From Chloroflexota bacterium (lineage in GTDB: Bacteria; Chloroflexota; Dehalococcoidia; Tepidiformales; Tepidiformaceae): a stretch of 64,000 nucleotides of DNA. The stretch covers positions 124,001 through 188,000 of the forward strand of contig JAPOQN010000013.1 of the NCBI GenBank assembly GCA_026710655.1. The letters are read 5' to 3'. Positions 35,809-54,644 of the stretch are shown in pieces (position 1 is the first letter of the stretch; each line of letters begins with the position of its first letter). The position numbers and the translations under genes are program-made. Below the pieces are notes generated by a model. The model saw only the letters and a program-made list of their open reading frames with translations. It ran no database searches and was not told the DNA's origin.

Positions 35809-35840
35809 GGCCTCGAAGCGAGCATCCTGCTCGCCAGGCC
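35809..35840 (-). promoter_or_regulatory. Hairpin between riboswitch aptamer and gene (possible expression platform)
   Basis: On the minus strand GGCCT pairs with AGGCC and an inner GCGAGC with GCTCGC around a five-base loop. Its 5' arm overlaps the last bases (GGAAGG) that close the c-di-AMP aptamer, so the two structures could exclude each other. There is no U-run, so attenuation would not be a classic terminator. Confidence 0.5.
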
Positions 35841-35953
35841 TTCCTAGTGCATACGGGGTTAGCTGACGGGTTCGGGCGGAAGGTTGCCCTAGGGACTGGA
35901 GATGTCCCATTCACCCCGGTAGATGGTTCCCCCGCTGCGCCATTGAGACGCAC
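35838..35953 (-). promoter_or_regulatory. ydaO/yuaA-type c-di-AMP riboswitch aptamer
   Basis: Reading the minus strand, the conserved blocks occur in the right order: GCGGGGGAACC, then GGGGUGAAU, then UAGGGCAACCUUCC, then GCCCGAACCCGUCAGCUAAC, then CCCCGUAUGCAC, then GGAAGG. These match the ydaO consensus as I know it. The stem closing the aptamer pairs GUGCGU (35948-35953) with AUGCAC (35847-35852), and CCUUCC pairs with GGAAGG. This class senses cyclic di-AMP, usually as an off-switch. The regulated gene is the 72-residue zinc-ribbon protein. Confidence 0.9.
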
Positions 35954-36003
35954 TCTGCAGGTTTCGGTTTTCACCGAGCGCATGCCCCTTGCGGGGCACC
36001 ATG

Positions 36004-48128: not shown

Positions 48129-49217
48129 ATGACAGTTTTGCAGCTTTTCCCGAGAAGGCCTCGCCTGCTCCTCGCCCTCTCCCTTGTCGGCCTCCTCAGC
48201 GCGGCCCTGCTCGTTGCCTGTAGCGGCGACGAAGACGCCCCGCCGGCGCCCACCCCCGCCGCTACCGAGGCCGCCACGGAGGCACCGACCGAAGCCGCCA
48301 CCCCCGAGCCCACCGAGGCCGCCACGCCCGCACCCACGGAAGCCCCGACGGAGGCCCCGCCCGCACCCGGCTACCCCCGCGATGTCGTCGACCTCTTCGG
48401 GCGCACCGTCACCATCCCCGATATCCCGGGGGCCATCGTCGCCATCAGCCCCACCGCCACCGAGCTCGTCTACGCCGTCGGCGGGACCATCGTCGGGCGC
48501 ACCCAGACCGTGAACTACCCGCCCGAGGCCCTTGAGGCGACCGATGTCGGCAGCGCCTATCAGCCCAACCTCGAGGCCATCCTCGCCCTCGAGCCCGACC
48601 TCGTGGTGGCCGACTCCACCATCCACATCCAGCCCGCCATCCGCGATACGCTCGAAGGGCTCGGCGTGCCCGTTATCTATGCCGGCGCCGCCAGCGTCGA
48701 CGAGGTGCTGACCGGCCTTACGCTCCTCGGCGAGGTGCTCGACAACCCCGATGGCGCCGCCGAGGCCGTCGCCGCCATCGAGGCCGCTCGCGCCGCCGCC
48801 CGCGAGGCGCTCGCCGGGCAGGAGCTGTCCGCCGTCATCCTCATCGGCGACCGCGACCGCAACCTCTACGCCGCCAAGGCCAGCGCCTTCGGCGGCTCCA
48901 TCCTCGACTCCCTCGGCATCGCCAACCCCGCCGATGTGCAGCCCGACTCGGGCCCCTTCCCGGGCTTCACCCGGGTCGCGCCCGAGGCCATGCTGGAGTT
49001 CGACCCGACCTACATCTTCACCGTCACACCCGCTCCGCCCCCCGCGCCCCGGCTGAGCGGCATGCTCGGCCTCTTTCCCGGATTCAGCGGGCTCCAGGCA
49101 TTCGTCAACGGGCGCGTGATCGAGCTCGACGTCCAGCTCCTCGTGCAGGCGCCGGGCCCGCGCGTCATCGAGGCGTTCGCCGCCATCGTCGAGGCGGTCG
49201 CCGCCGGCGGGCAGTAG
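48129..49217 (+). CDS. ABC transporter substrate-binding lipoprotein (FecB/BtuF-like)
   Basis: A 362-residue exported lipoprotein. A signal peptide ends at a lipobox LLVAC (Cys31), followed by a Pro/Thr/Glu/Ala repeat stalk to about residue 78. The class III periplasmic-binding fold then has VVDLFGRTVTIPDIPGAIVAI, SPTATELVYAVGG, NLEAILALEPDLVV and GLGVPVIYAG. It captures a metal-chelate such as a siderophore or cobalamin outside the membrane and hands it to the permease that follows. First gene of a three-gene operon. Confidence 0.92.
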   Translation: MTVLQLFPRRPRLLLALSLVGLLSAALLVACSGDEDAPPAPTPAATEAATEAPTEAATPEPTEAATPAPTEAPTEAPPAPGYPRDVVDLFGRTVTIPDIPGAIVAISPTATELVYAVGGTIVGRTQTVNYPPEALEATDVGSAYQPNLEAILALEPDLVVADSTIHIQPAIRDTLEGLGVPVIYAGAASVDEVLTGLTLLGEVLDNPDGAAEAVAAIEAARAAAREALAGQELSAVILIGDRDRNLYAAKASAFGGSILDSLGIANPADVQPDSGPFPGFTRVAPEAMLEFDPTYIFTVTPAPPPAPRLSGMLGLFPGFSGLQAFVNGRVIELDVQLLVQAPGPRVIEAFAAIVEAVAAGGQ

Positions 49218-49233
49218 CCGGAGAGGGACACCC

Positions 49234-50268
49234 ATGGCGGGACTCACGGCCGAGGTGCGTACGGGAATGTCGTTCCTGGTGCCCCGCGGACGCTCCCGCC
49301 GCCATGTCGCCCTCGCCTGCGCGGGCGTCCTCGCGCTCGCCGTCATCGGCCTGCTCACCATGATGTTCGGCGCCGTCAACCTCTCCGCCGGCGAGGCCCT
49401 GAGCGGGCTCACGGCCGGCTCGGACTCCCTCTCCGGGCTCGTCGTCGGGCAGATCCGCCTCCCCCGCTTCCTCGACGCCGTCCTCGTCGGCGGTTCGCTG
49501 GGAGTGGCCGGCGCGCTGCTCCAGGGCGTCACCCGCAACCCCCTCGGCGACCCGACGATCTTTGGCCTCACGGGCGCCGCCGGCCTCGCCACCGCCGTCT
49601 CCATCTCTATCAACCCCCAGATTCCCCAGTGGGGCATCGCCCTCGCCGCAATGATCGGAGGGCTGGGCGGCGCCGGCATCCTCTTCGTCATCGCCTACCG
49701 TGGCGCCGTCTCCCCCGTGCGACTGGCCCTCGCGGGCGTCGCCCTCTCCGCCCTCTTCGGGGCCATCATCGTCGGCCTCATCGCCAGCGTTCGCACCTTC
49801 ATCCAGACCACGCTCGGATTCCTCGCGGGTGGCCTCTACGGCTCCGACTGGTCCGACCTCCGCTCCATCCTCCCCTACGCCATCCCCGCCCTCGCGGCCG
49901 CCGTTGCCCTTGCCGGACGCCTCAACGTGCTCTCTCTCGGCGACGAAGTCGCGACGGGCCTCGGCGTGCTCGCCGATCGCACCCGCCTCGCCATCCTCGT
50001 CGTCGCCGGCATCCTTACCGCCTCCGCTGTTGCCGTCGCCGGTCTCGTGGGCTTCGTCGGACTCCTCAGCCCCCACATCGCCCGCTACGTCGCCGGCTCG
50101 GACAACCGCTACCTGATCCCCGCGTCCGCCCTGGTGGGCGCGATCATCGTGGCCGGCGCCGACCTCGTCGCGAAGCTGATCATCATGCCCTCGGAGATCC
50201 CCATGGGCATCATCACCGCCGCCATTGGCGCTCCCTTCCTCCTCTACCTCGTACGATTCAAGGTGTAG
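49234..50268 (+). CDS. FecCD-family ABC transporter permease
   Basis: A 344-residue membrane protein of the FecCD/BtuC type with about 10 hydrophobic segments. Family features are IRLPRFLDAVLVGGSLGVAGALLQGVTRNPLGDP, GDEVATGLGVLADRTRL and VGFVGLLSPHIARYVAGSDNRYLIPASALVGA. It forms the channel for the metal-chelate. It lies 16 bases after the binding protein and two bases before the ATPase. Confidence 0.94.
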   Translation: MAGLTAEVRTGMSFLVPRGRSRRHVALACAGVLALAVIGLLTMMFGAVNLSAGEALSGLTAGSDSLSGLVVGQIRLPRFLDAVLVGGSLGVAGALLQGVTRNPLGDPTIFGLTGAAGLATAVSISINPQIPQWGIALAAMIGGLGGAGILFVIAYRGAVSPVRLALAGVALSALFGAIIVGLIASVRTFIQTTLGFLAGGLYGSDWSDLRSILPYAIPALAAAVALAGRLNVLSLGDEVATGLGVLADRTRLAILVVAGILTASAVAVAGLVGFVGLLSPHIARYVAGSDNRYLIPASALVGAIIVAGADLVAKLIIMPSEIPMGIITAAIGAPFLLYLVRFKV

Positions 50269-50270
50269 CC

Positions 50271-51071
50271 GTGCGACTCACTTCCGAAAGCCTGACCCTG
50301 CGCTACAACGGCCGCGATGCTGTCCACGAGGTCTCCCTCGACCTCGAAAGCGGCGAGCTCATTGCTATCGTCGGCCCCAACGGCAGCGGCAAGACGACGC
50401 TCCTGCGAGGCCTCTCTCGCCTGCTCAGCCCCGTTGCCGGACACGTGCTGCTTGATGGCGACGACATCCGCGCGATCAGCTCCCGCGATGTCGCCCGCCG
50501 CCTGGCCGTTCTCCCCCAGGAGCACCCCGAGGGCGTCGACATCACCGTGCATGAGCTGGTCTGGCGGGGACGCGCCCCCCACCAGGGCATCCTCCAGCGC
50601 GCCACCGCCACCGACCACGAGGCCGTCGCCTGGGCGCTCGACGCCGCCGACGTGAGCCACGTCGCCGCCCGCCCCCTCGGCAGCCTCTCCGGCGGCGAGC
50701 GCCAGCGCGCCTGGATCGCCCTCGCCCTCGCCCAGCAGCCCCGCGTCCTCCTCCTCGACGAGCCGACCAGCTTCCTCGACGTGCAGCACCAGGTCGAGGT
50801 GATGGCCCTCCTCAGCCGCCTCAACGCCGAGGGCATGACCATCATCGCCGTCGTTCACGACCTCGCCCTGGCCGGGCGCTTCATGCAGCGGGTGATCGGC
50901 ATGCGCGATGGGCTCATCGCCTTCGATGGCCCCGCCGGCGAGGTGCTCCGCCCGGAGCCCCTCGAGGAGGTCTTCGGCGTGCCCATGGTCGTCCTCGAGG
51001 ACCCCGAGAGCGGCCTGCCCGTTCCCCTGCCCCGCTACCCCGAGGGCGCGGTTCCTGCCTCGAACGGGTAG
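50271..51071 (+). CDS. FecE/BtuD-type ABC transporter ATP-binding protein
   Basis: A 266-residue ATPase. Walker A is VGPNGSGKTT, the Q-loop is AVLPQEHPEG, the signature is LSGGERQRAWIALALAQ and Walker B is VLLLDEPTSFLD, with the H-loop His in AVVHDLALAGRF. It powers the importer encoded just upstream. The start is a GTG two bases after the permease stop. Confidence 0.95.
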   Translation: MRLTSESLTLRYNGRDAVHEVSLDLESGELIAIVGPNGSGKTTLLRGLSRLLSPVAGHVLLDGDDIRAISSRDVARRLAVLPQEHPEGVDITVHELVWRGRAPHQGILQRATATDHEAVAWALDAADVSHVAARPLGSLSGGERQRAWIALALAQQPRVLLLDEPTSFLDVQHQVEVMALLSRLNAEGMTIIAVVHDLALAGRFMQRVIGMRDGLIAFDGPAGEVLRPEPLEEVFGVPMVVLEDPESGLPVPLPRYPEGAVPASNG

Positions 51072-52971: not shown

Positions 52972-53814
52972 ATGCGTTGGGTAACCCTCTGCCTGGCCGC
53001 CGTGCTCGCGATCGCGCTGGTCGCCTGTGGTGGCGACGACTCCCCCGCGTCCCCCCCTGCCCCCGCCCAGCAGTCCGCCGCCACCGAGGCGCCCGACCCC
53101 CCCCCGCAACCCACCGCCACGGCCGAGGCCGCGCAGCAGTCCGCCGCCACCCAGTCGCCCGACTCCACCCCGCAGCCCACCGCTACCGCAGGGGCCGCGC
53201 AGTCCGCCGCCACGGAAGCGCCCGACCCCACCTCGCAGCCCACCGCCACGGCAGAGGCCACGGGGACGCCTGCCTCCACACCCGAGGCCACCCGCCAGGC
53301 GGCTACGCAGGCCGCCGCGACCCAGGCTTCCACACCCACCCGAACCCCCGCCACGACGCCTGAGGCCACGCAGGCCACCGCCACCAACCCCCCCGCGGAG
53401 CCCGACCCCACGCCCGAGTCGACCCCCGACGACGAGCCCTCCCCCACCCCCGAGGCCACCCAACCCTCTCCCACGGCTACCGTTGCCCCCACCCAGACCG
53501 CCGCCGACGTGCCCGAGGAAGCGGCCGTCGCCCAGTTGCCAAAGGTCTACTTCGTCCACACCGAGTGGTGACCAACCTGCAATAGACTCCGCCCCGTGTG
53601 GGCGGACCTGGAGCAGGAGTACGCCGGCCGGATCGAGTTCGTCCAGGTCGACCGTGAGAGCGAAGATGGTCGCGAGTTCGCTCGCAGGCATAACATCTTC
53701 TATCAACCCGTCTTCATCATCTACGAAGGCGACACGCTCGTGCGCCAGGACGCCGGCGTCTCCAGGGAGGCCGACCTGCGCGCTTTCGTCGCCTCAGCCC
53801 TTGAGGAGGGGTAA
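52972..53814 (+). CDS. Exported thioredoxin-like selenoprotein 1 (in-frame UGA, W-U-P-T-C)
   Basis: Read through one in-frame TGA (codon 200, 53569-53571), this gives a 280-residue lipoprotein: lipobox ALVAC (Cys19), a Pro/Thr/Ala-rich stalk (about 25-180), then PKVYFVHTEW-U-PTCNRLRPVWADLEQEY, a thioredoxin fold with cis-Pro in IFYQPVFIIYEG. The TGA stands exactly at the first Cys of W-C-x-x-C, and a stable hairpin (53588-53606) follows 16 bases later. If the UGA is read as stop, the gene would split into a truncated lipoprotein and an orphan half-thioredoxin. The stop TAA is two bases from the next gene. The upstream ribosome-binding site is weak. Confidence 0.85.
53588..53606 (+). promoter_or_regulatory. 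SECIS-like hairpin of selenoprotein 1
   Basis: Stem TCCGCCC/GGGCGGA, loop CGTGT, starting 16 bases after the UGA. A G lies near the start of the loop, as in bacterial SECIS elements. The same hairpin recurs in the next two genes. Confidence 0.7.
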
Positions 53815-53816
53815 CC

Positions 53817-54257
53817 ATGCGTCTGATCGCCCTTGCCGCCACCACCGCCCTTGCCGCACTCGTGCTCCTCGCCTGCGGCGGGAGCGATCCCGCCCCTCCA
53901 GCCCCGACCGAGGCGCCCACCGCCGCCGCCACCGAGCAGGCCGCGGATGTCCCCGATGACGCCGTCGTCTCCTCCACGCCGAAGGTCTATTTCATCCACA
54001 CCGAGTGGTGACCAACCTGCCGTGCGCTCCGCCCCGTGTGGGCGGATCTGGAAGAGGAATACGGCGACCGGGTCGAGTTCACCCTGGTCGACCGCGAGAC
54101 CGAGGAAGGCCGCGAGTTCATCCGCGACCACGGAGTGCCCATCGGTCAGCCTGGCTTCGTCGTCTACGACGCTTCCGGAGAGGTCACCTATGCGGGCCTC
54201 GGTCCAACCCGTGAAAGCGGCGTCCGCGAGCTCGTCCTCTCGGTCGTCCCCGAGTAG
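53817..54257 (+). CDS. Exported thioredoxin-like selenoprotein 2 (in-frame UGA, W-U-P-T-C)
   Basis: Read through the TGA at 54009-54011 (codon 65), this encodes a 146-residue lipoprotein: lipobox VLLAC (Cys20), a short Pro/Ala/Thr linker, then PKVYFIHTEW-U-PTCRALRPVWADLEEEY and a thioredoxin C-terminus with a cis-Pro in IGQPGFVVYD. It is the short-stalk copy of the preceding gene; the 24 bases around the UGA are identical in the two. It begins two bases after the first gene ends, so the genes are probably translationally coupled. Confidence 0.85.
54028..54046 (+). promoter_or_regulatory. SECIS-like hairpin of selenoprotein 2
   Basis: Stem TCCGCCC/GGGCGGA with the CGTGT loop at the same 16-base distance from the UGA as in the first gene. 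Confidence 0.7.
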
Positions 54258-54263
54258 CGAGCC

Positions 54264-54644
54264 ATGCGCCCGCTCGCCCTTGCCGCTGCCGCTTCGCTCG
54301 CCGTGGCGGCGCTCGCCTGTGGCGGTGGCGAAACCGCCCCCGCCCCCGCCCCCGCCCCGGTCACCGGCCCGCAGGTTTTCTTCGTCCAGATCGATACCTG
54401 AGGCCCGTGAAACCGCCTCCGCCCCGTGTGGGCGGCGCTGCAGGCCGAATACGCGGACCAGATCGAATTCGTCACCGTCGACGCCAACTCCCGCGCCGGC
54501 GCGGACTTCTCCGACCTCTACGGCATTCGCGGGCACCCCGGCTTCGTCGCGATCAACGCCAACGGTGAGGTGGTCCACGCCGCCCTCGGCCCCTTCGAAG
54601 AGGAGGGTTTGCGCGACCTCGTCGCCTCGCTTGTGCCCGAGTAA
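54264..54644 (+). CDS. Exported thioredoxin-like selenoprotein 3 with two in-frame UGAs (U-G-P-U)
   Basis: Two in-frame TGAs (codons 46 and 49; 54399-54401 and 54408-54410) fall exactly at both positions of the thioredoxin C-x-x-C motif: VFFVQIDT-U-GP-U-NRLRPVW. Read through, the product is a 126-residue lipoprotein (lipobox ALAC, Cys19; Ala/Pro linker) with a thioredoxin fold and cis-Pro in IRGHPGFVAI. U-x-x-U recalls the diselenide motif of the SelL family, but the sequence around it matches the neighbouring genes. The ordinary Trp before the first redox residue is replaced by Thr. It starts six bases after gene 2. Confidence 0.8.
54419..54435 (+). promoter_or_regulatory. SECIS-like hairpin of selenoprotein 3
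   Basis: A six-base stem (CCGCCC/GGGCGG) with the same CGTGT loop; its distance from the first UGA equals that in copies 1 and 2, and it lies eight bases after the second UGA. A single hairpin may serve both UGAs. Confidence 0.65.

Follow-up and report, generated by a model that had tools for sequence, protein, structure and literature searches.

In-frame UGA codons at the active sites of thioredoxin-like genes raise a simple question, namely whether they are stops or are read as selenocysteine (Sec), and a harder one, namely what such proteins would do. Three consecutive genes of this kind lie at positions 52972-54644 of a 64 kb stretch of DNA from a member of the Tepidiformaceae, a family that the NCBI taxonomy places in the class Tepidiformia of the Chloroflexota. 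The whole stretch is termed the window here. The analysis described below indicates that the UGA codons of the triad are very likely decoded as Sec (probability approximately 0.88), and this is an inference from sequence that has not been shown biochemically.

Organization of the gene triad

Gene 1 (52972..53814, plus strand) encodes a lipoprotein thioredoxin of 280 amino acids when UGA is read as Sec, with a long stalk rich in Pro, Thr, and Ala. Its lipobox (LVAC) ends at Cys19 (53026..53028), and the UGA at 53569..53571 corresponds to Sec200 within a UPTC motif. A Shine-Dalgarno-like GAGGAGG sequence for gene 2 was seen directly within the end of gene 1 (53803..53809, plus strand). Gene 2 (53817..54257, plus strand) encodes a product of 146 amino acids with a stalk of medium length, a lipobox (LLAC) ending at Cys20 (53874..53876), and a UPTC motif in which the UGA at 54009..54011 is Sec65. 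Gene 3 (54264..54644, plus strand) encodes the shortest product, of 126 amino acids, with a short stalk, a lipobox (ALAC) ending at Cys19 (54318..54320), and a GHPGF cis-proline loop. In this case both redox positions are UGA codons (54399..54401, Sec46, and 54408..54410, Sec49), giving a double-Sec UGPU motif. All Sec assignments come from translation with TGA as Sec.

An initial annotation had described three tandem lipoprotein thioredoxin genes separated by 2 and 6 bases, with stalks of different lengths and one UGA in each gene, at the first redox cysteine. The coordinates proved exact, the gaps (2 bases between genes 1 and 2, and 6 bases between genes 2 and 3) were confirmed, and so was the placing of a UGA at the first redox position in all three genes. 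The distance from the lipobox Cys to the thioredoxin domain is ~ 171, 36, and 17 residues in genes 1, 2, and 3, so the stalks do differ. The count of one UGA per gene failed for gene 3, with its two UGAs starting at 54399 and 54408.

When TGA was translated as Sec, the three products scored 41.3, 28.8, and 38.0 bits against the Pfam Thioredoxin model PF00085 (cut-off 23.5). The lipobox-type signal at the start of each product rests on a pattern match only, since no signal peptide predictor was used. A structure prediction for gene 3, made from its own sequence without an alignment, gave the strand and helix order of a thioredoxin with a mean pLDDT of 70.5 (65 in the active-site block and 77-87 beyond it), and the solved structures closest to the predicted fold were thioredoxins. 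The triad is best described as a set of tandem paralogous genes for thioredoxin-fold selenoproteins, probably forming one operon.

Selenocysteine machinery and the use of UGA as a stop

The source genome is a 3.14 Mb draft in 71 contigs, estimated to be 93% complete. The initial annotation had taken the absence of Sec machinery as something that would refute a Sec reading, and proposed a search for selA, selB, selC, and selD. All four were found above their cut-offs: selA (517 bits), selB (300 bits), selD (345 bits), and the selC gene for tRNA-Sec (71.1 bits), whose anticodon was identified as UCA by ARAGORN. The selD gene (L021) is itself a selenoprotein gene, with an in-frame UGA in a GCGG-U motif. 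A gene of the CcdA/DsbD type is also present in this genome.

An alternative is a genome-wide reading of UGA as Cys or Trp, and the occurrence of Cys at the UGA position in some homologues could be taken in its favor. However, TGA also terminates genes here (2 of the 12 window genes checked, both of them with relatives in the genus); tRNA-Sec(UCA), selA, selB, and selD are all present; and the hairpin described below occurs mostly in Sec genes and is mostly absent from Cys homologues. Genome-wide recoding is all but excluded on these grounds. In two relatives (G004 and G006; loci L056 and L058), gene 1 was seen to carry a second UGA just beyond the domain. This codon is most simply a true stop, in which case UGA would serve as Sec and as stop within a single gene.

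Conservation of the UGA codons

A search of 119 genomes, including the source genome, returned 28 matches above 60 bits. Every one contained one or two TGA codons, the first UGA fell in the same alignment column in 28 of 28, and none carried Cys at the UGA site. Among the matches listed, the best one without a TGA scored 42.5 bits. Six of the nine genomes in the genus contained all three genes with the UGA pattern one, one, two. Another (G003) had two of the triad genes at a contig end, one (G008) had none, and one (G005) had a single gene, encoding UPQC, at the same locus and between the same flanking neighbors as the triad. The G005 locus suggests either tandem triplication or loss in G005. 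Six genus copies of gene 1 and seven each of genes 2 and 3 have the UGA at one and the same codon, which it also occupies in other genera, and the gene 3 motif is UGPU or UPPU in 7/7 copies, all seven of which also contain GHP. The initial annotation would have been contradicted by close relatives lacking both UGA and Cys at these positions; the relatives that have the gene keep the UGA, and the reading was not refuted.

Next, selection downstream of the UGA was considered. Over the rest of the domain from 13 codons past the UGA onward, dN/dS was 0.13 in gene 1, 0.20 in gene 2, and 0.11 in gene 3, with the gene 1 value taken from five of six sequences after exclusion of the divergent G002 copy. 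A selA match was present in 15 of the 18 genomes with a listed UGA-bearing match; the three without one (G026, G030, and G031) are all only 72-81% complete.

These data bear on the most direct rival to Sec, in which the UGAs are real stops and the genes have either decayed or are translated as separate halves, the second halves starting from GTG codons inside the hairpin. In support of this, GTG-started open reading frames for the C-terminal halves do exist, at 53596, 54036, and 54426. Against it stand the retention of UGA at the same codon across genus copies and in other genera, the dN/dS values of 0.11-0.20 beyond the UGA, the complete Sec machinery, and the fact that separate halves would break the fold at its active site. 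Real stops are therefore considered very unlikely, and the original preference for Sec over three nonsense mutations is supported by the machinery, the hairpin, the conservation, and the dN/dS values.

In phylogenetic trees, genes 2 and 3 each clustered by kind, while gene 1 clustered less firmly, its branch also taking in genes from G014 and G026. A single clade uniting the three kinds from the genus was not recovered, and this hypothesis was neither shown nor rejected (p 0.17). A named sequence collection yielded 14 loci, of which 12 were strong and carried the titles Dehalococcoidia, Chloroflexi, Thermoflexaceae, Tepidiformaceae, or just bacterium; the remaining two were weak (E 2e-4) and came from Verrucomicrobia-type genomes.

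A SECIS-type hairpin follows each first UGA

A SECIS-type hairpin with a CGUGU loop lies 3' of the first UGA of each gene on the plus strand: at 53588..53606 in gene 1 (7 bp), 54028..54046 in gene 2 (7 bp), and 54419..54435 in gene 3 (6 bp). The distance from UGA to loop is 23 nt in genes 1 and 2, and in gene 3 it is 23 nt from the first UGA and 14 nt from the second. Published bacterial SECIS elements have a loop of 3-9 nt with a G in the first two places, located 16-37 nt past the UGA (PMC13188914). The first UGA of each gene fits this model in both loop and spacing; at 14 nt, the other UGA of gene 3 falls short of the published range.

The hairpin is shared by the 28 aligned genes (25 distinct rows), in which the CGUGU loop is enclosed by a stem with at most 7 bp that starts 16 nt past the UGA. 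Among the 25 distinct rows, 95.4% of 175 stem cells were paired, as against 28.6-57.1% when the partners were slid, and two stem pairs were altered on both sides, in 3 cells, in a compensatory manner. One two-sided change, in the G031 gene, swaps Ala to Pro yet preserves the pair. Across 21 genus genes, the stem codons +6 to +9 (Leu, Arg, Pro, Val) and +11 were synonymously invariant, while the codon for Leu +13 agreed in 53% of pairs; synonymously invariant codons were also found outside the hairpin, for example at -6, -4, -3, +3, and +23. A possible outer stem, pairing columns 9-13 with 41-45, was rejected, as only 69.6% of its cells were paired and a slid version performed better on covariation.

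A hairpin model applied to the source genome returned the three triad sites with E values of 3.7e-13 or better and a next hit at 0.21; note that this model was derived from the triad sites and their relatives themselves. Folding energy was not unusual for composition (z -1.86, -0.73, and +0.50 for genes 1, 2, and 3) in a test of our own that lies outside the published model, and the minimum-energy fold of the gene 3 stretch alone differs from the SECIS-type hairpin. An Rfam scan of the window detected no SECIS, and this silence is not evidence against the hairpin, because the RF00031 model was blank even in 14 control genomes.

The hairpin was then compared between Sec and Cys sequences. Of 49 Sec sequences, 40 had a perfect, correctly placed hairpin with 6 bp or more, as did 1 of 28 Cys sequences; the 40 included 16 distinct stem-loop sequences. 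This criterion was chosen post hoc, once the sequences were known, and 22 of the 28 Cys rows have no lipobox; among the six lipoprotein-like Cys rows, 1/6 met it. The nine Sec rows (9/49) that failed were three gene 1 copies together with L046, L065, L066, L101, L135, and L136. Two Cys homologues of family f87 (L102 and L110) were observed to carry a hairpin of 5 and 6 bp, respectively, at the SECIS position. It is possible that these are remnants left after a change from Sec to Cys.

Double-Sec lipoprotein thioredoxins in the wider phylum

Membership of a phylum-wide family was missed by the initial annotation. At E 1e-9, 94 of 400 Chloroflexota genomes contained a match, many of these being ordinary thioredoxins, and the loci read across the phylum included many UxxC lipoproteins. 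Cys and Sec interchange within families, with CGSC beside UGSC in f87 and CPKC beside UPNC in f88; Cys at the UGA position, which the initial annotation had proposed looking for in homologues, is thus present in some of the more distant ones.

Two UxxU genes belonging to another Chloroflexota class (that of genome G429) prompted a search there, and 132 of 396 genomes gave a match at E 1e-12. By our own reading of the matches, at least 52 with two TGA codons occurred in at least 48 genomes. UxxU was found in 28 of 30 returned loci, and in every one (40/40) of the larger loci fetched for two-TGA matches. Double-Sec lipoprotein thioredoxins are widespread in this class (L143-L171, L173-L192, and L219-L238).

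On a tree of 85 rows, the UxxU character required two changes. Gene 3 was placed beside UxxC neighbors of its own family, away from the large UxxU group, and the alternative that all UxxU sequences form one clade was rejected (p-AU 0.007). Caution is needed here, as the group was named after the trees had been viewed and long branches are present. Two gains of UxxU are the simple reading, and an ancestral UxxU with repeated loss is not excluded.

Two residues were associated with the motif. Counting distinct sequences, His preceded the cis-proline in 33/33 UxxU, 4/42 UxxC, and 2/7 CxxC proteins. The underlying set contained 34 UxxU rows, 34/34 with His, and three pairs of rows with the same 60 residues were counted once; it included only four gene 3 copies out of seven, as the remaining three had been removed as repeats. 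Trp preceded the first redox residue in 28/42 UxxC and 0/33 UxxU sequences. That the His is common to two separate UxxU groups suggests a shared chemical need.

G013 (L070) has, in addition to a UxxC gene, a gene for a UPDU lipoprotein thioredoxin, and the latter protein groups with the UxxU genes of the other class rather than with gene 3. Clustered copies were observed elsewhere, at L067, L217, and L172: G099 has a close pair of UxxC genes, the G499 locus contains two U motifs, and a Sec copy adjoins a Cys copy in G742.

Relationship to known selenoproteins

A 2026 catalogue lists 119 prokaryotic selenoprotein families and subfamilies (PMC13188914). In its Table 1, thioredoxin appears as UxxC with one Sec, and UxxU is entered for Prx-like, metal-binding NF041115, and FmdB proteins (PMC13188914). 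The likeness of the window genes to Sec-containing thioredoxin (PF00085, UxxC) lies in the thioredoxin domain and in the Sec at the first redox position; they differ in being stalked lipoproteins encoded in tandem and, for gene 3, in having UGA at both positions. The three proteins scored 35.9, 23.8, and 32.9 bits against the thioredoxin equivalog TIGR01068, all below the curated cut-off of 96.8, and none of the 12 proteins tested (the three window proteins and nine relatives) attained the cut-off of any NCBIfam model.

Other families resemble the triad in part. SelL has a UxxU motif with a diselenide bond (PMC2397514), and UxxU is also present in the Prx-like 2 family (PMC2398784). Gene 3 shares only the motif with these proteins, which are Prx-like while gene 3 belongs to PF00085, and the SelL-related model NF040769 gave no match to gene 3 up to E 1. 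For NF041115, another protein with UxxU, a metal role has been proposed (Table 1, PMC13188914), but the NF041115 model matches the heavy-metal-associated region of an ATPase, not a thioredoxin, and gave no match to the window proteins. The Rcas_1661 family (NF041057) is already named as a thioredoxin-like (seleno)lipoprotein family, and exported selenoproteins of a thioredoxin kind are thus not wholly new. A member above its cut-off, with Thioredoxin_4/DSBA domains, adjoins a UxxU gene at locus L191. The NF041057 model (cut-off 190) did not match the three window proteins up to E 1, and all its matches in the source genome fell below the cut-off. Against the HUIPC model NF047660, gene 3 scored 12.6 bits (cut-off 105) and genes 1 and 2 gave no match.

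Operons with several selenoprotein genes are also known, such as the three-selenoprotein operon (Tso) and the SAO operon (PMC13188914). The members of these operons carry different family names (Table 1, PMC13188914), whereas the window triad consists of paralogues of one family. In the literature searched, which did not include most subscription papers, no title or abstract opening described proteins of the triad type. What appears to be new is the tandem set of three paralogues, one of them double-Sec, together with the phylum-wide double-Sec lipoprotein family; Sec-containing thioredoxins were already known.

Gene neighborhoods and possible function

The genes at 48129-51071 of the window encode, judged by names given from reading the sequence, a binding protein, a permease, and an ATPase resembling an ABC importer of the B12/heme type. 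These importer-like genes hold their position beside the triad within the genus, and other neighbors of the triad resemble genes of acyl-CoA metabolism. The neighbors are common to the triad loci within the genus and are hardly found outside it. A c-di-AMP riboswitch was detected elsewhere in the window (35834-35969, minus strand, 87.6 bits).

Outside the genus, the neighbors of 40 UxxU loci were compared with those of 24 UxxC loci. A heavy-metal P-type ATPase gene lay within 8 kb at 17/40 UxxU and 2/24 UxxC loci (Fisher p 0.0044), and a cytochrome c gene within 8 kb at 18/40 and 0/24, respectively (Fisher p 3.5e-5). These p values are too strong, because the queries came from UxxU loci, flank lengths vary, and the loci are related. 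Three scanned ATPases near UxxU genes exceeded the cut-off of a copper-translocating model. A CsoR-like gene lay within 3 kb at 4/40 UxxU and 0/24 UxxC loci, which is no significant excess, and one such gene exceeded the cut-off of the Pfam metal-sensitive repressor model. Genes of the PCYCGC, DUF2085-like, and DsbA-like kinds, and one ResA/TlpA-like gene, were also found near UxxU genes elsewhere. In the 64 kb window, queries for heavy-metal ATPase, cytochrome c, CsoR-like, and DsbA-like genes gave no match, and the first three of these neighbors were absent from three same-genus loci. The search for a connection between the window triad and copper was thus negative.

Each UGA is very likely decoded by SelB and tRNA-Sec at the hairpin just downstream, a step strongly supported by the sequence data, and in our reading each protein is exported and lipid-anchored, with a presumably disordered stalk of differing length carrying the domain above the membrane. 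The function proposed here has no basis beyond fold and location, and we judge that it falls a little short of probable. In this proposal, the triad proteins would act as extracytoplasmic thiol/selenol oxidoreductases, receiving electrons through a CcdA-like membrane protein; their substrates at the cell surface would be disulfides, peroxides, or metal-bound thiols, which they would reduce. Stalk length would set their reach. The gene 3 product, with two Sec residues, would be the most reducing member, would form a diselenide when oxidized, and may have a different substrate.

Two other functions can be considered. One possibility, of lower probability, is that gene 3 encodes mainly a metal site or copper-handling protein in place of a general redoxin; its two selenolates and its His would then work in the manner of a Sco-type chaperone. 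The copper site of Sco-type proteins consists of CxxxC plus a His. This idea is favored by the His-Pro at the cis-proline loop in 33/33 UxxU sequences, by the occurrence of UxxU in two separate groups, and by the proximity of UxxU loci outside the genus to heavy-metal ATPase (17/40) and cytochrome c (18/40) genes. However, no such neighbor occurs in the window or at three same-genus loci, the related loci and unequal flanks inflate the Fisher values, and the likeness to the Sco site is drawn by analogy only. The other is that the triad forms an exported reductase set for the maturation of c-type cytochromes, disulfides, or copper centers. The cytochrome c, DsbA-like, and ResA/TlpA-like genes near UxxU genes elsewhere, and the CcdA-like gene in the genome, speak for it. 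Against it, the window gave no match to the cytochrome c or DsbA-like queries and the triad neighbors there are the importer-like and acyl-CoA metabolism genes, which leaves a maturation role unlikely.

Implications

Selenoproteins are easily overlooked because UGA is annotated as a stop. A bolder reading, put forward only as a possibility, is that lipoprotein thioredoxins combining UxxU with the His form a large uncatalogued class of Chloroflexota surface selenoproteins, with two lines of descent, whose two selenolates and His would serve to bind copper or another soft metal, or to hand it on; gene 3 would then be the version found in this genus, beside two single-Sec partners on longer stalks. 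The occurrence of UxxU together with the cis-proline His in two groups makes a testable question of what advantage a thioredoxin capable of forming a diselenide may have over one with UxxC.
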